A stretch of DNA of 64,000 nucleotides from Bdellovibrio reynosensis (lineage in GTDB: Bacteria > Bdellovibrionota > Bdellovibrionia > Bdellovibrionales > Bdellovibrionaceae), in contig NZ_CP093442.1 in NCBI RefSeq assembly GCF_022814725.1, positions 1,426,001 to 1,490,000 on the forward strand, in the 5' to 3' direction. Numbering within the stretch: position 1 is the stretch's first letter; every line of letters begins with the position of its first letter. The position numbers were made by a program, and so were the translations under genes. The notes beneath the pieces were generated by a model, which saw only the letters and a program-made list of their open reading frames with translations, was not told the DNA's origin and searched no databases. Shown here piece after piece: positions 7,208-60,861 of this stretch.

Positions 7208-7380
7208 CCTAACTTTTAGAGTTCTAATTCGACACCAATCAAAGAATTATTCTGCGCAGCGTTGGCAAAATGCTATTCTAATTTTCGTAGGCACAAAAAA
7301 CTGTAAGAGCAAGAACGCTTCTTCCGGGGGGACAAGGAAGTTCCAAATTTCCTCCCAGCAAAACCGAGGGCAGAGGTTGG

Positions 7381-7495
7381 CGAGAAGGGTCCAAGCGCAA
7401 GGCGGAGGATCTTCCGCGAAACGCAGGCGTGGCAGCGCCACGTCGGAGAGAAGCGGAAGACCGCACAACGCAGTCGATTGGGCCCTTATCGACGA
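7381..7495. repeat. Structured repeat family A, copy 1
   Basis: The core GCAAGGCGGAGGAT (7397-7410) and ACCGCACAACGCAGTC (7460-7475) are shared with copies at 53309 and 59991. Between them are nested stems: CTTCCGC (7411-7417) with GCGGAAG (7453-7459), and CGTGGC (7428-7433) with GCCACG (7437-7442). Outside, AAGGGTCC pairs imperfectly with GGGCCCTT. The two inner stems have different bases from the other copies but still pair. It lies in the ~400-nt gap 7149-7546; the stretch before it (7208-7380) shows only GC-rich imperfect hairpins. A frame open across it is judged non-coding. Confidence 0.8.
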
Positions 7496-7546
7496 CCGAC
7501 CGACTTTAGACTAAAGATTCCCACCGCGAAGCCGATAGGAATGCTT

Positions 7547-15468: not shown

Positions 15469-17622
15469 ATGAAAAATTTCCGGTACCTTCTTGTATTTTC
15501 AGCGTTGGTTTTATCAGCTTGTCACAGTCTTGACAGAAAACCAGCTGCTCTTTTTCATATGCCTTCCAGCTTAGAAAAACTTTATGAAAATGAATTGGCG
15601 TTATTAGAAAGCCAAGAAAAACTTCGTCTAGCGCAAAAAAGTTTAAGCCAATCTGAAGACGAATGGGCACAAAACGTAGCTGATTTAAAAAAGAAAAAAT
15701 TCCAACTTGAAGCCCAAGCCATGGGTTTGACTGTCCAGTCAGCCCACGGTGATGCACCAAAAACTTTTGAAACCCTGATGCTTCGTCGTTGGGGTGTTAA
15801 AAATGAAGCGTATACACTGACTGATCTGGGTTATTACGAAAAATCAGCAAAGATGCCGTTTTTTTCGATGTCCAATCATAATGCTGAAAATTACGAGCTG
15901 TTATTACGCCACGAAGTTTTCTATAAACAAAGCGGCGGAGTCCCAACTCGGACTGAAGAAACACCGGAAGCCCAAAAGTATTTAGAGGCGATATTAAAGT
16001 GCGATGGAAGTTTTTCACTTAAATCGGGAATTTTCAAATTCGATCACTACAAATCCCAGGACGTTGCAAAGTTTCATTGGTACGATGGCAATTTAAATGG
16101 CCAAAAAGTTCGCTTTCGCCCCTCTGCCGAAGTAAGAAACTGCCAACTGACTTTTAAAAATCCATGGGGTGATACAAGAAAAGAATATGCCATTCAGTTT
16201 AAGACAGAAAAAGAAAAACTGGGTTTCTTAGAAACGCTAGCGAAAAACTATGAAGCTTGCGTGCTTCCTTCAACTCACGGTCTAAAAAAGACGCAAAGCT
16301 TTTTCTTAAACAGCGGTTACACTTACATGAACTGCCCATTAGAAGCAGAAAAAGTCACAACCTTAGAACAAGCCGAAGATGGGTTGCAAGCCAAAGCAGA
16401 AATGCTTTTAGGCCAAAAGTTACCAGCAAAATTCCTAGCAGATAAAAATCCGTACGCACCGTTGGATTTTTCAAAAGCACCGAAATTAGACGGCATCTTT
16501 GTTTCTTATTTAGTCTTTAGAAGCGATTTTTACGGAAACACCCTGGCTCGCTTAATGAAGTATCACGCCGATCGTGGAACCCAAGTAAGATTGCTAATTT
16601 CCGACGTCATTAGCCTTGATAAGGATAAAGCGCTTTTCGAAAAACTGATGGCCGAAAATGGAAACATCAAAGCCCTATTATATCGTTACGACAACGATTC
16701 AAAAAGTGGTGGAAAGTTCCATGAATTGCATAGAACAAACCACGTTAAGATCTTTTTAACCCTGTCATCGTCAGATCCTAAAGCAAACAAGGTCGTTCTT
16801 GGTGGCAGAAACATCCATGATGGATTCTTGCTAAGAACTGTTCCGAACCATTCAAAATATCCAAGCTTGATCAACTATCCAAAAGAGGAAGCATTCGTTC
16901 ACTGGCGCGATTTTGAATTCACAGTAGAATCAAAAGAGTTCACTGAAAAAGTGGCAAGCCAATTTTACACTTTATGGATGCAAGATACCGACAGCTTCCA
17001 TGTTAGACCCACCACGGTGCAACTAAGTTCACCCAACAAACTGAGTTCAAAGTACTTTGAATCAGCCAATGAAAAACCTTTGGTGCGCCATTATCTTTCA
17101 ATTCCGTACAAAGACAATCAAATCCTAGAAGACTTCTATGCGGACCTGATCGACAGTGCTCAGAAAAAAGTGTTGATCTCTACACCCTATTTCCGCCCAC
17201 TTAAAAAAGTAGGTGACGCTTTACAAAGAGCCGCAGACCGCGGCGTTCAAGTAACTTTGCTTACAAGATTAGATCTTAAAGGTGACACTGCGGACCTCAT
17301 CCTGGGCGCAGTAAACAAAGACGGCGTCAATAAATTTAAAGACACATTTAAGGTTTACGAATACACGGAACCAAAAATCATCCTTCACTCAAAGCTCATC
17401 ATGATAGATGATGAGCTAAGTTTCTTAGGTTCAGTAAATCTTAATAAACGAAGCTTCATCCACGACATGGAAAACGGAGCTTTGATCTACAGCCCAGCCC
17501 TCGCAAAGAAAATGGAAAGCATCTATAAAGTGTATTTACAACAATCCCGCCCCATCACCGAAAAACAAAAAGTATGGCTGTGGCAGAAACTTGTTATTGG
17601 GATATTCGATTCGGAGTTCTAA
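15469..17622 (+). CDS. Phospholipase D-family lipoprotein
   Basis: The 717-residue precursor has lipobox LSACHS. Residues ~50-310 are unrecognised, with an initial coiled coil. Two PLD modules follow. The first has H425-x-K427 (NHVKIFL) but the Asp of HxKx4D is replaced, with GGRN downstream; the second is complete (HSKLIMID, His640, Lys642, Asp647, then GSVNLNKRS). PLD enzymes use both histidines to cleave or transfer phosphodiesters; cardiolipin synthase-like or phospholipase activity on membranes is plausible. Exported and membrane-anchored, so not a standard cytoplasmic-face synthase. AGGAGG-like site before ATG 15469. A large structured repeat starts 19 nt after the stop. Confidence 0.8.
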   Translation: MKNFRYLLVFSALVLSACHSLDRKPAALFHMPSSLEKLYENELALLESQEKLRLAQKSLSQSEDEWAQNVADLKKKKFQLEAQAMGLTVQSAHGDAPKTFETLMLRRWGVKNEAYTLTDLGYYEKSAKMPFFSMSNHNAENYELLLRHEVFYKQSGGVPTRTEETPEAQKYLEAILKCDGSFSLKSGIFKFDHYKSQDVAKFHWYDGNLNGQKVRFRPSAEVRNCQLTFKNPWGDTRKEYAIQFKTEKEKLGFLETLAKNYEACVLPSTHGLKKTQSFFLNSGYTYMNCPLEAEKVTTLEQAEDGLQAKAEMLLGQKLPAKFLADKNPYAPLDFSKAPKLDGIFVSYLVFRSDFYGNTLARLMKYHADRGTQVRLLISDVISLDKDKALFEKLMAENGNIKALLYRYDNDSKSGGKFHELHRTNHVKIFLTLSSSDPKANKVVLGGRNIHDGFLLRTVPNHSKYPSLINYPKEEAFVHWRDFEFTVESKEFTEKVASQFYTLWMQDTDSFHVRPTTVQLSSPNKLSSKYFESANEKPLVRHYLSIPYKDNQILEDFYADLIDSAQKKVLISTPYFRPLKKVGDALQRAADRGVQVTLLTRLDLKGDTADLILGAVNKDGVNKFKDTFKVYEYTEPKIILHSKLIMIDDELSFLGSVNLNKRSFIHDMENGALIYSPALAKKMESIYKVYLQQSRPITEKQKVWLWQKLVIGIFDSEF

Positions 17623-17641
17623 TTCTTGTCTTCGAACGAGG

Positions 17642-17802
17642 GATTTGGCGTATAGGAGTGGAGTAGCTTAGGTCTCCTCCTCCAAGAGCACGCCGTCCGG
17701 GCTCAGTCGTCGCCGCAGCTACGCTGCGGTTCGCGCATCCATGCGCCGACGAAGGCTCTTTCCGTATGAGGCCTAAGCTACTCCACTCCTATACGCCAAA
17801 TC
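17642..17802. repeat. Structured repeat family B, copy 1 (minus orientation)
   Basis: Perfect 31-bp inverted arms (17642-17672 and 17772-17802) enclose a ~99-nt core. Read on the minus strand, the core contains TACGGAAAGAG, CCTTCGTCGGCGC, AACCGCAGC...GCTGCGGCGACGA and TGAGCC...GGCGTGC.TCTTG, all shared with copy 2. Internal hairpins are GCCGCAGC/GCTGCGG and GCGCAT/ATGCGC. It begins 19 nt after the PLD gene stop. No open frame of interest is in it. Confidence 0.85.
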
Positions 17803-18026
17803 TGTTCAAAACAAAGATCTAGCTTCGATAGTAATACCAATTAAGATTACAAACATATTTTAGTCTTAAGGCGCAGACCAAATTGAAAGAAAAGACACCA
17901 ACAAAAAGCATCCATTTCTTCGTCAAAAAAAAATGTAAATCAAATCACCTAAAAGACCTTAAATCATTAATCGCCTACACCTGAAATTCATCCAAAGTTT
18001 TCTACCTCAATTCACAAATGTCGTGC

Positions 18027-18240
18027 GGCGAGGCTGGGTAGTACGGAAAGAGGCCTTCGTCGGCGCCACGATGGCGCGCCAAAAATAGCAGGATGCTATT
18101 TTTGCGCGTAAGCCCCGAAGGGGTTGAGGGCAGGAGCCCTCAACAACCGCAGCAAAGCTGCGGCGACGATGAGCCAGGATGGCGTGCCTCTTGAAGCTAC
18201 TAGGAATAGCAAAGTGCCAGGCACAGAGCCCAGCCTTGCC
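18027..18240. repeat. Structured repeat family B, copy 2 (plus orientation)
   Basis: Outer arms GGCGAGGCTGGG (18027-18038) and CCCAGCCTTGCC (18229-18240) pair with one G-T, but differ in sequence from the arms of copy 1. The core (TACGGAAAGAGGCCTTCGTC ... AACCGCAG..CTGCGGCGACGA) aligns with copy 1 except for a ~65-nt insertion carrying three extra hairpins: AAAAATAGC/GCTATTTTT, CCCC/GGGG and TTGAGGGC/GCCCTCAA. It ends 36 nt from the hslO stop. The AT-rich spacer 17803-18026 between the copies shows nothing else. Confidence 0.85.
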
Positions 18241-18275
18241 GACACCGAGGACCGCAGCGCTTGAGCTAGTAAAGC

Positions 18276-19175
18276 TTAGTGCATGGATTCTTTGTGAACG
18301 CGATCCTTGATCGAAGAAATTTCGGCGACAGTGACGACGTAAGGTTTGCCGCAGATTTGGCAAGTGACGTTGGCGTCTTCTTTTTTGGTGATCATGTCTT
18401 GGAGTTCTTCTTCGCCCAAAGTTTCAAGGGCTCTGATGACGCGCTCTTGTGTGCAAGGACAGTAGTATTCGATTGGATAATCGTGTGGAAGTTCTTCAAA
18501 CTCGATACCTTCCATAAAGGGCTTAACCAGATCGATGGGTTGAGCACCGTCTAACAACATTTTTGAAATGTTTGGTTTTTTCTCGTCGTAATTTTTTTGA
18601 ATAAGTTCAACCACAGATTCTTCAACCCCCGGCATGACTTCAATCAAAACTCCGCCGGCTGTTTCAACTTTTCCGTTGGTATCAAGATACACACCCAAAG
18701 CTACAAGCGAACGAATCTGATGGGATTGATGTAAGTAGTGCGCGATGTCCTGCCCAATTTCACCGCTGACCAATTCCACAGTTCCGTGGAAAGGTTGTTT
18801 TTGGAATGGTTGATGACGAGCAACACTTAAAGTCCCATTACCAAGGGCTTCTTTAAGACTTAAACCGTTATCATAGTTTGGTGGTTGATATTGTGGGTTT
18901 GGAGTGTAACCACGCACGTGGCCTTCAAACGAAGCTTCGGCATACACACTTTGCAATGCACCGTTACCACGGAACAACAAGCCTACCATTTGACCGTCTT
19001 TAAGTTGTGAGGCCATTAATAGAGCCCCAACCATGCTGCGTCCCACCGCCACTGATGCAATCGGATATGTATTTTGCAAGCTTTGCATGTGTTTAACAAC
19101 TTCAGAAGCATTCACCGCGGCAATTCTCAACGTAAGATCTTTAGAAACAAAACGATGAACACGTTCTTTACTCAT
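18276..19175 (-). CDS. hslO: Hsp33 redox-regulated chaperone
   Basis: A 299-residue protein with the Hsp33 zinc-binding switch: Cys239-x-Cys241 (YYCPCTQER) and Cys272-x-x-Cys275 (CQICGKPY). Reduced Hsp33 binds zinc and is inactive; oxidative unfolding of this C-terminal region turns it into a holdase for aggregating proteins in the cytoplasm. N-terminal motifs also fit (ASQLKDGQMVGLLFRGNG, GVYLDTNGKVETAGGVLIEVMPG). Length is normal for the family. Monocistronic, convergent with the PLD gene, with repeat family B between them. The start at the ATG at 19175 is supported by a complete N-terminus. Confidence 0.95.
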   Translation of the reverse strand: MSKERVHRFVSKDLTLRIAAVNASEVVKHMQSLQNTYPIASVAVGRSMVGALLMASQLKDGQMVGLLFRGNGALQSVYAEASFEGHVRGYTPNPQYQPPNYDNGLSLKEALGNGTLSVARHQPFQKQPFHGTVELVSGEIGQDIAHYLHQSHQIRSLVALGVYLDTNGKVETAGGVLIEVMPGVEESVVELIQKNYDEKKPNISKMLLDGAQPIDLVKPFMEGIEFEELPHDYPIEYYCPCTQERVIRALETLGEEELQDMITKKEDANVTCQICGKPYVVTVAEISSIKDRVHKESMH

Positions 19176-51576: not shown

Positions 51577-53301
51577 ATGAAATTTTTCAGTCTTCTGACA
51601 TTCGTTTTATTATTCGGTTTCTGTGCATGGGGTTATAACTGCAAAGAGCTTTACGTTAAAGGCCATGCTGATCCTCGCTTCCCGGCGGGACTTGACTGCA
51701 AGCTTGAAAAGAAATTCGACGTCAGCGGGGTTCCAGTTCATATATATCAATACACGAAGGACTTCCCTCAACATCCGGAAGATTTGCAATTTGCTTATCG
51801 CGCAACACAAGTTTTTCATGATGTTTACAACACCATCGTTCGCGTGAACCCGGAACTTTATCCGCGTTTAAGATTCACGGGCTTAAATTTTATTTTAACG
51901 GATCACCCACCCGAAGACACTGAAATCGCGAAAGTGCAAATCGGTCACGCCCAAGAGGGCGAACTGTGCCCGATCATCGTTTATGCTGCAAATCTTCGTA
52001 AAGAATCACCGGATTATCAGAAACAGGAACTTGCCCACGAAATCTTTCACTGTGTCCAGGATTTAGTATGGCAAGAGAAGATGAATGTACCAAAAGCGAT
52101 TCGTTCTTGGTGGTCTGAAGGTACGGCTGTTTGGTTTAGTAATTTGGTTTATCCTTCTAATAATCAAGAATCTTATTGGAATGCTTCCTACAGCTTTGAT
52201 GATAACTTGGTCGAACAAAAAGAGCCTTATGCAGCGTATTTGTTCTTTCAATCCGTTTCTCAATCTTGGTTGGGTTTACAGGGCGTGATCAGCCTGATTA
52301 AGGATATGCCCATTTCTGGGACTTCAGATGATCAAGCCAAGGCTGTTTTAGATACTCCTTCAATGAATCTTCTTTGGCATACCTTCGCTGAAGAAATCAC
52401 CAGCAGTCGCATTTTAGATTTTAATGGGAAGCACATTGTGACTTCTGTCATTGGCGAGCCCGAAGAAGAAGACATTGAAGAAGGTGAAGATGTTTTGGAA
52501 TGGGACCTTGCACCTTTAACTATGCAAGTGACTGAACTAAAAGTGCCAGCGCAATCGATCACCTATATTGAAAATCTAACTGAAAGTTACAACAATCCTA
52601 TTTCTTTCCGTAACTCTGGTGCCGGCATGTGGGGGCAGCTATTCCCAAACTGGCCTTATGCGATTGATACTTCGTGCAAGAAGAACACGCATTTCGTAAA
52701 TATGCTTTCTTCTTATGCCGGTCAAAATGATTCAGGCGTTCCCGAAAACTTTAAAGTAAGAATCAAATCACAAAAAACTGAATGCAAGTGCATTGATGCG
52801 GAACAATTCGATCCATGCCTTTATGGCAACTACAAAATCGATCCAAAATCCATCGACAATATGTTCAGACGAATTTTCCAGGACAAGAAATTCACCGTCG
52901 TGCAATCATCAGGTGGATATGATCTGATGATCACCGGAACTCAGCGCTTTAACTTCACCCAAACTGGCTTCACGGCTGCAGTAATTCTTCACGACGACGA
53001 CCACGGCGATATCAAAGCCAGCGTTTCCTTAGACGGAACAACGGATGCCATCGCTAAACACCCGAAAAAAGGTGAACTGTGTTTTTCAGACATCGGCGAT
53101 GAATACAACATCAAAATCCGCGTGGAATTCCCACAGGGTGTTGCAGAATCAGAACAACCGTATTCACACTTCCAAGACTTAGCCGCAGAAGGCCCGATGA
53201 AATACACGTGCAACTCAAACGAACTGACTTTGCTCCGCCCACTTCCAACTGGCGAAGACGGCGCCACAGAATGGATTCCAATAGTTTTCAAACGCAAGTA
53301 A
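51577..53301 (+). CDS. Exported gluzincin-like metalloprotease candidate
   Basis: The 574-residue precursor has signal MKFFSLLTFVLLFGFCAWG. Residues 154-158 are HEIFH in QELAHEIFHCVQD, and Glu181 in WWSEGTAVWFSNL is placed as the third zinc ligand, the HExxH...E layout of gluzincins. The domain around it is not one I can name. The C-terminal ~300 residues are beta-rich with many Cys residues (ECKCIDAEQFDPCLYG) and unrecognised. Gene ends 7 nt before repeat family A copy 2. Protease activity is inferred from the motif only. Confidence 0.65.
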   Translation: MKFFSLLTFVLLFGFCAWGYNCKELYVKGHADPRFPAGLDCKLEKKFDVSGVPVHIYQYTKDFPQHPEDLQFAYRATQVFHDVYNTIVRVNPELYPRLRFTGLNFILTDHPPEDTEIAKVQIGHAQEGELCPIIVYAANLRKESPDYQKQELAHEIFHCVQDLVWQEKMNVPKAIRSWWSEGTAVWFSNLVYPSNNQESYWNASYSFDDNLVEQKEPYAAYLFFQSVSQSWLGLQGVISLIKDMPISGTSDDQAKAVLDTPSMNLLWHTFAEEITSSRILDFNGKHIVTSVIGEPEEEDIEEGEDVLEWDLAPLTMQVTELKVPAQSITYIENLTESYNNPISFRNSGAGMWGQLFPNWPYAIDTSCKKNTHFVNMLSSYAGQNDSGVPENFKVRIKSQKTECKCIDAEQFDPCLYGNYKIDPKSIDNMFRRIFQDKKFTVVQSSGGYDLMITGTQRFNFTQTGFTAAVILHDDDHGDIKASVSLDGTTDAIAKHPKKGELCFSDIGDEYNIKIRVEFPQGVAESEQPYSHFQDLAAEGPMKYTCNSNELTLLRPLPTGEDGATEWIPIVFKRK

Positions 53302-53308
53302 CGTCTAA

Positions 53309-53431
53309 GGCGAATCAAAAGTGTCCATATGCAAGGCGGAGGATCTTTCGCGAAACGCAGGCGTAGCAGCGCTACGTCGAAGTGAAGCGAAAGACCGCAC
53401 AACGCAGTCAGATGGGCGCTTTTCATTCGCC
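53309..53431. repeat. Structured repeat family A, copy 2
   Basis: Outer arms GGCGAATCAAAAG and CTTTTCATTCGCC pair with one mismatch. Conserved core blocks GCAAGGCGGAGGAT (53331-53344) and ACCGCACAACGCAGTC (53394-53409) enclose TCTTTCGC/GCGAAAGA and CGTAGC/GCTACG stems. Starts 7 nt after the stop at 53301. The rest of the 283-nt gap (53432-53584) shows only a likely promoter region. Confidence 0.85.
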
Positions 53432-59950: not shown

Positions 59951-59990
59951 CTTGCTTCTCCAGTTCGAAGACATTCCTACTCAAAAACCA

Positions 59991-60115
59991 GGCGAATCAA
60001 AAGGGTCCATATGCAAGGCGGAGGATTCTGTCTGCCACGGAGGCGTACCCGTAGGGTACGTCGGAGAGCAAGACAGAACCGCACAACGCAGTCAGATGGG
60101 CCCTTTTCATTCGCC
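59991..60115. repeat. Structured repeat family A, copy 3
   Basis: GGCGAATCAAAAGGGTCCAT and ATGGGCCCTTTTCATTCGCC are inverted arms with two mismatches. Conserved GCAAGGCGGAGGAT and ACCGCACAACGCAGTC enclose TTCTGTCT (60026-60033)/AGACAGAA (60071-60078) and CGTACCC (60044-60050)/GGGTACG (60054-60060). It sits 8 nt after the stop of the gene at 60124, inside an operon. Confidence 0.88.
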
Positions 60116-60123
60116 CGCCGTGT

Positions 60124-60861
60124 TTACCAATTACCGGAAGCGCCGCCGCCTGAAAAGCCGCCACCGCCGCCAGACCAACCGCCCCCGCCACCGCCGAAGC
60201 CGCCGCCTCCACCGAATCCACCAAAGCCCCCGTAACCGCCGCGGAAACCTCTGCGGCCTCCACCGCCAAAGCGACCAAGAACAGAAATGATGATTAAGAT
60301 ACCGATGATTAAACCAATCGGCAGATCCCCACCACCATTTGAAGCTGGAGCTTCACTAGTCAGTTGTTTTTCATCAGCAAACTCTTTGTCAGCAAGTCTT
60401 AAGATTTCATGAACGCCAAGAACAACGCCGGCAGAGTATCTTTTTGAACGAAACAGAGGAATGACTTGATCACTGATAATACGTTTGGCGTAAATGTCAG
60501 GAATAGCTCCTTCTAAACCTTGGCCGACTTCAATGCGCATCGAACGATCATTAGGCGCGATAAGAAATAGAACACCGTTGTCCTTTTTTTCATCCCCTAA
60601 TTTCCATTGATCCGTGATTTCAATCGAAGCTTGTTCAATCGGAAGCCCTTGCAGGTCTTTAACAATAAAAACCTGAACCTGAGCTTTTCCTCGGCGATTG
60701 AAATCATAAAGAAGCTGCATCAGTTCCTGGCGATCATCGCGCGACATTAATCCCACTTCATCAATCACCGGACCCGACAAGGCCGGCACTTCAAACTTGG
60801 CTTCAGAAATGAACCCAAAGCCCAAGATTAAAATGAAAAGCGAAAGAGCTATATTGCGCAT
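60124..60861 (-). CDS. TPM-domain protein with Gly-rich C-terminus (YgcG-like)
   Basis: The 245-residue precursor has a signal peptide (ALSLFILILGFGFISEA), a periplasmic TPM domain (GPVIDEVGLMSRDDRQELMQ, NDRSMRIEVGQGLEGAIPDI, YSAGVVLGVHEILRLAD), one C-terminal helix (IGLIIGILIIISVL) and a glycine-rich tail (GGGGFGGGGGGWSGGGGGFS). This is the YgcG/TPM-phosphatase architecture. Starts 2 nt after the lemA stop. With LemA and the second TPM gene it forms a conserved envelope operon whose biochemical role is not settled. Confidence 0.88.
   Translation of the reverse strand: MRNIALSLFILILGFGFISEAKFEVPALSGPVIDEVGLMSRDDRQELMQLLYDFNRRGKAQVQVFIVKDLQGLPIEQASIEITDQWKLGDEKKDNGVLFLIAPNDRSMRIEVGQGLEGAIPDIYAKRIISDQVIPLFRSKRYSAGVVLGVHEILRLADKEFADEKQLTSEAPASNGGGDLPIGLIIGILIIISVLGRFGGGGRRGFRGGYGGFGGFGGGGGFGGGGGGWSGGGGGFSGGGASGNW

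Follow-up and report, generated by a model that had tools for sequence, protein, structure and literature searches.

We have characterized a dispersed structured repeat of Bdellovibrio, family B, each copy of which consists of a ~90-nt conserved three-way-junction core held within a ~20-38-bp hairpin of copy-specific sequence. The element lies at the downstream ends of genes and within IS1-like transposons. Our tentative reading, held at somewhat less than even confidence, is that family B may be a transcription boundary that has no U-tract, probably works in both directions and spreads as a repeat. A fuller version would make it a genus-specific class of such U-tract-less, probably bidirectional boundaries, with a three-way-junction core and a free, near-perfect hairpin whose arms are rewritten together, and found alike where host genes end and at the 3' end of an IS1-like element; this we consider possible but doubtful. 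The action on transcription, and its direction, we infer throughout from sequence features.

The window (the whole 64-kb stretch of DNA that was analyzed) contains two family B copies in the interval between the convergent genes PLD (plus strand) and hslO (minus strand). The features of this interval are as follows:

15469..17622, plus strand: phospholipase-D-like gene (PLD; PLDc_2), stop 19 nt from copy 1
17629..17641, minus strand: conserved 3' edge CCTCGTTCGAAGA of copy 1, beside the PLD stop codon (17620-17622)
17642..17802, minus strand: family B copy 1, full hairpin of arm, core and arm (inverted repeats, fold)
17642..17676, minus strand: copy 1 outer arm, 3' side of the element strand (arm pairing)
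17675..17766, minus strand: copy 1 conserved core, with CGAAG-type internal loop, stem, two hairpins and GCC-NGGAN-GGC hairpin (covariance-model match, 89.5 bits)
17768..17802, minus strand: copy 1 outer arm, 5' side of the element strand (GATTTGGCGTATAGGAGTGGAGTAGCTTAGGCCTC), able to pair with the other arm at 34 of 35 positions
18020..18245, plus strand: family B copy 2, full element, its 3' side ~30 nt from the hslO stop codon (18276-18278)
18020..18038, plus strand: copy 2 left outer arm GTCGTGCGGCGAGGCTGGG
18043-18200, plus strand: copy 2 covariance-model match (57.4 bits)
18080..18144, plus strand: module C insert (CAAAAATAGC..GCTATTTTTG..CCCCGAAGGGG..GGGCAGGAGCCC), a separate dispersed repeat
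18229..18245, plus strand: copy 2 right outer arm CCCAGCCTTGCCGACAC
18276..19175, minus strand: hslO (Hsp33; HSP33), stop ~30 nt from copy 2

An initial annotation of this interval had described a two-copy repeat with the copies in this relative orientation, and the repeat is real: 17707-17731 pairs with 18145-18169 as an inverted repeat (92%), as does 17736-17756 with 18053-18073 (86%), and both copies fold far below their dinucleotide shuffles. The minus-strand read of copy 1 (17642-17802) folds at -102.5 kcal/mol (z -11.9) and copy 2 at -120.9 kcal/mol (z -7.1). Copy 2 had been placed at 18027-18240; it exists there, but its span is about 18020-18245, with shorter outer arms, ~35 nt extra on the 3' side and a core split by module C. 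As annotated, the two copies face their nearest stop codons with the same strand, and the transcribed strand would be the same for both; it is, however, the reverse complement of the strand that had been aligned. Wherever two elements were seen close together, their order is minus-plus, each element lies beside the stop of its own gene and the stops are convergent, as in the window. AT-rich spacers of roughly 130-450 nt separate such pairs (window 17803-18019, for example).

The covariance-model search that had been proposed as a check was carried out with a core model derived from 44 copies. It found 20 copies in the 3.58-Mb source genome (G000), where BLAST likewise recovered many further family B copies, and matches in 22 of 24 Bdellovibrio species at 2-29 copies each, so that related genomes do carry the element. 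At class level outside the genus, only four other genomes gave matches, and these were weaker; the only named record with the exact core pattern was a Bdellovibrio sp. MAG. Rfam covariance models at gathering and relaxed thresholds gave no match over the element, and family B was absent from phage and plasmid collections and, as the exact core pattern, from viral contigs. Positions 330,000-1,841,000 of contig C1 in the source genome (1.5 Mb) hold 17 of its 18 located copies, the remaining one being at 2.90 Mb. The two genomes with the highest copy number (G012 and G022, 29 each) also rank first in Y1 transposase genes (10 and 12), with no adjacency among the listed positions.

The anatomy and arm statistics are drawn from 136 copies in 15 genomes. 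Read on its plus (core-conserved) strand, the element opens with a left edge such as AGCACA or GGCAAA, followed by an outer arm of ~20-38 nt that commonly starts GATTTG, a CGAAG-type internal loop and a short stem. The core then runs GGCC-TTYGCCGGCGC, a hairpin, GAA, a CCGC..GCGG hairpin with a triloop, a CTGAGCC-NGGAN-GGC hairpin and GTGCC, and is followed by CGAAGC, the second arm and an edge CCYCG, which in several species reads CGTTCGAAGC. The core triloops are GAA, AAA or GCA, closed by C-G, and the core stems covary strongly with almost no G.U intermediates. The 5' flanks of the element have no consistent promoter motif for a small RNA of its own.

The initial annotation had held that the core is kept while the helices drift, which holds in the sense that complementarity is retained as the arm sequence changes: 3922 of 4121 arm pairs (95%) are Watson-Crick. 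The median arm complementarity score is in the high 20s, and swapping arms between genomes brings it down to 6 (95th percentile 8). Arm sequence is specific to the copy, except that near orthologs mostly share it. In the near species pair G001/G018, orthologous arms mostly differ little or not at all, and there are clear concerted changes on the two arms, among them a one-base concerted deletion in L033/L045. Bursts of change are confined to few loci (9 concerted changes in L041/L054 and 14 in L130/L055) with gene-side flanks 93-97% identical. Because the count of concerted double changes depends partly on how the arms are aligned, and arms that have diverged too far yield them almost by construction, we rely only on the clear pairs L129/L125, L033/L045, L042/L056, L041/L054 and L031/L124. 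At one locus, the G018 copy (L052) and its G001 counterpart (L039) are nearly identical in core, right arm and right flank and differ in the left arm, and the arms of L052 are mismatched. L052 thus appears to be a recombinant, with its native left arm joined to a core and right arm identical to those of G001 at a junction inside the element; since its arms have been left mismatched, pairing would be restored or selected, yet not instantly.

The mismatches bear on which strand folds. On the plus strand, G.U mismatches outnumber A.C (72 to 25) and purine-purine mismatches outnumber pyrimidine-pyrimidine (97 to 5) among the 4121 pairs; by locus, 71 lean to plus and 14 to minus, a sample large enough to overturn the view of no strand preference that a smaller one had suggested. 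This is moderate evidence that the plus strand is probably the folding strand, and only moderate because the G.U over A.C bias is strong in G005 and absent in G000, G001 and G018, and because loci are related by descent.

Such arms could also belong to a site that folds as single-stranded DNA, comparable to integron attC or REP sequences and used by a recombinase, a Y1 transposase or a replication-linked process, with the arms kept matched by template switching or hairpin mismatch repair. The predominance of Watson-Crick pairs with few G.U, the concerted two-arm changes between near orthologs, including the concerted deletion, the C-G-closed triloops and the presence of Y1 transposase genes in 21 of the 24 genomes would all fit. 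Four Y1 loci, however, contained no element matches, three genomes without Y1 (G013, G017 and G008) carry elements, and L052 has kept its arm mismatch uncorrected after recombination. We regard a single-stranded DNA site as very unlikely.

The position of the element is strongly constrained. In 95 of 135 copies (~2e-6 against one half, in a normal approximation that ignores shared ancestry), the gene on the plus-3' side runs towards the element and converges with its plus strand, which is thus usually antisense to the abutting gene. Orientation statistics relative to flanking genes, the other check that had been proposed, are thus non-random. Copies between convergent genes number 54 of 135 and those between divergent genes 8 of 135; for 41 of the 135, no called neighboring gene transcribes the plus strand.

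The distance from stop codon to element is bimodal. A near class, 60 of the 110 copies with a called gene, starts 2-44 nt past the stop codon, and none of these 60 has an intervening intrinsic terminator. At 60-120 nt, an intrinsic terminator intervenes in 27 of 31 copies, and the arm begins 13-45 nt after the end of the longest T run in 30 of 31. A simple rule would cover both classes on this sequence evidence, namely that the element is probably the first thing past the end of the transcription unit, be that end a stop codon or a terminator. In its simple form, the idea that the element substitutes for the terminator of the adjacent gene was rejected: ordinary terminators are about as common near genes with an element as at control gene ends (38 of 111), and where a terminator is present the element comes after it.

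The initial annotation had read both copies as 3' UTR of the adjacent gene, and an mRNA element of this kind would be read in gene sense and would stabilize or regulate the message or bind a protein, for example through its GGA loops. The placement at gene ends stands and the near class agrees with it; the hairpin is near-perfect in gene sense too, and many of the neighbors are housekeeping genes. In the 60-120 nt class, however, the intervening terminator puts the element outside the mRNA of that gene, the mismatch types favor folding of the opposite strand, and the strand that is sense in the IS is also the opposite one. A role in the 3' UTR therefore seems unlikely to us.

The same gene ends carry the element in distant species, with unrelated arms. 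It follows fusA in five genomes (G000, G001, G005, G018 and G020), rpoN in three (G001, G009 and G018), nrdJ in G000 and G001 (gene read from its C-terminus), a tail-specific protease gene in G000 and G005, and, in five genomes, one gene that has no Pfam match; it also follows groEL and rpsI in the near pair G001/G018 (genes read from their C-termini only). Downstream of hslO, the source genome has the element and G002, G006 and G023 have minus-plus pairs, whereas hslO without the element ends in ordinary terminators in G004, G010, G011, G012 and G015; in G020, the hslO and PLD stops nearly touch. Turnover is also evident, as only about 3 of 18 copies in the source genome share their gene with copies in G005. 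Elements were lost by deletion in L132/L174 and L057/L170. L036 and L166 differ by a segment flanked by 6-nt direct repeats, which fits an insertion or a deletion, and two of three candidates for a clean insertion site resembled partial deletions.

In G013, three copies have been duplicated together with ~900 bp of upstream coding DNA. The carrier at L181 is a 1.23-kb unit with 12-bp terminal inverted repeats (TAAACTGATCCA/TGGATCAGTTTA) and a 290-aa transposase with a zinc ribbon and HTH, and the family B element fills the gap between the transposase stop and the right end. The transposase matches the NCBIfam IS1 model NF033558 with an E of 2e-11 and 44 bits, below the 100-bit cut-off. Relatives at 58-63% identity in G010, G014 and G011 also carry an element detected by the covariance model, with the plus strand in transposase sense, and a relative in G019 has a long hairpin without the core in the same slot. 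Transposases at 33-42% identity have no element, and several have an intrinsic terminator in that slot. This subclade of IS1-like elements, found in five species with the element between transposase and right end, is new here.

Solo copies have no transposase or terminal-repeat remnants: among the 136 copies, TIR-like sequence occurs only in the three IS-borne copies of G013. We therefore rejected the view that solo copies are IS remnants. Nor does family B qualify as a MITE of the IS1-like element, for which identical TIRs and target duplications would be expected. Exchange between IS and host may have run either way.

The main and strongest rival to a role at transcription boundaries is that family B may be a host-neutral, non-autonomous mobile hairpin, possibly spread by IS1-like elements, whose targeting or survival is confined to the downstream edges of transcription units and whose fold serves mobility. 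This we consider doubtful though quite conceivable. Carriage by IS1-like elements in several species, the recent duplication along with an IS in G013, about 20 copies per genome with high turnover, and the losses by deletion are all as such a hairpin would predict. Set against these are the scarcity of transposase or terminal-repeat remnants, seen only inside the G013 IS, the absence of any such IS1-like transposase from the source genome although family B copies are present there, and the recurrence of the element at the ends of orthologous genes in distant species. Had it inserted between a stop codon and its terminator, a terminator would further be expected beyond the element, and only 6 of the 60 near-class copies have one.

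A border position in both the host and the IS settings, together with the terminator slot in the IS, leads us to favor a transcription boundary. Placement at gene ends and presence at the end of a jumping gene suggest a home-made barrier that borders transcription units. Family B would then be a dispersed structure, vertically kept and occasionally mobile, that marks and closes off Bdellovibrio transcription units at their downstream border. As RNA polymerase passed through the element, it would produce a very stable ~25-35 bp hairpin capped by the conserved three-way-junction core, and this hairpin may stop or roadblock transcription, mainly that of the plus strand, which runs out of the IS or, at host loci, would run towards the end of the abutting gene, and probably transcription from either side. 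The core would be conserved as the recognized or structurally critical part; the outer arm need only pair, so its letters could drift freely. The flanks of the hairpin have no T run on either strand, and the sole terminator-scan match in this region of the window is at chance level. Since an element without a U-tract is by definition no intrinsic terminator, another mechanism would be needed, and this could be Rho, a bound protein or the hairpin alone.

Module C, which interrupts copy 2, is a repeat of two to three hairpins that is inserted in the inner loop region in copies of both families, A and B, and elsewhere occurs by itself. It occurs in more than 10 other places, among them L009, L010, L011 and L132, three copies of family A (L025-L027), and L024 and L028, and behaves as if it were a mobile insert or an accessory domain. 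The initial description of the repeat as unrelated to family A was therefore only partly right, as families A and B have this insertable module in common. Family A, at window positions 7374-7497, 53308-53431 and 59990-60115, folds into a long hairpin with a conserved middle and likewise abuts gene ends: the stop of 51577-53301 (plus strand) is followed 7 nt later by 53308, and 9 nt separate 60115 from that of 60124-60861 (minus strand). At L028 (1522200-1525400 of the source genome), repeated long GC-rich inverted units (GGTTACCACCG...CGGTGGTAGAAATT) lie beside two module C copies.

If family B does act as a boundary, Bdellovibrio would close off the ends of its genes by a structure without the U-tract that standard terminators have, the many natural variants with different arms around one core would allow the role of pairing to be separated from that of sequence, and the link to an IS1-like transposon would be one route by which such borders may spread. 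The paired evolution of the arms also lets one read from natural sequences how cells maintain the match in long inverted repeats. Even as a mere mobile hairpin, it would be a large repeat family in a well-studied predatory genus, and we found for it neither an Rfam entry nor a description in the literature on Bdellovibrio repeats, terminators and small RNAs.

BIME/REP, ERIC and Correia-type repeats are dispersed intergenic imperfect palindromes, present in tens of copies, often at gene 3' ends and limited to particular taxa. Family B resembles them in dispersal, imperfect palindromy, copy number, location at gene 3' ends and taxonomic limits, and differs by its conserved middle, long free arms and fixed spacing from the stop codon or terminator. 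Mobilization by RAYT, as for REP/BIME, was rejected, with one weak proximity of an element to Y1 in G005 set beside the element-free Y1 loci and the Y1-less genomes that have elements. Integron attC sites share with family B the variable arms of kept complementarity, the position directly past the stop codon and the fixed orientation, whereas family B has a large conserved core, housekeeping neighbors and no cassette arrays. It was also rejected as an attC site on its flank profiles, which give only AGCA[CA]A and C[CG][CT]CG edges and no conserved terminal boxes, and its neighbors are unlinked. Another structured RNA of the genus is merRNA, an abundant c-di-GMP-riboswitch RNA of the Bdellovibrio attack phase and one highly expressed non-coding RNA (PMC3627812); it contains a known riboswitch, whereas family B matches no Rfam family. 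The carrier transposon, a possible IS1 family member, has an IS1-like transposase and 12-bp terminal inverted repeats, and differs from that family in scoring under the NCBIfam cut-off and in having a hairpin between transposase and right end. With intrinsic terminators, family B shares a strong hairpin where the transcription unit ends, free arm sequence and a frequent location between convergent genes. The canonical form, a GC-rich hairpin followed by a T run, was rejected, as only the hairpin is present; family B differs further in following an ordinary terminator in about a quarter of the copies with a called gene, and in its conserved ~90-nt three-way-junction core.
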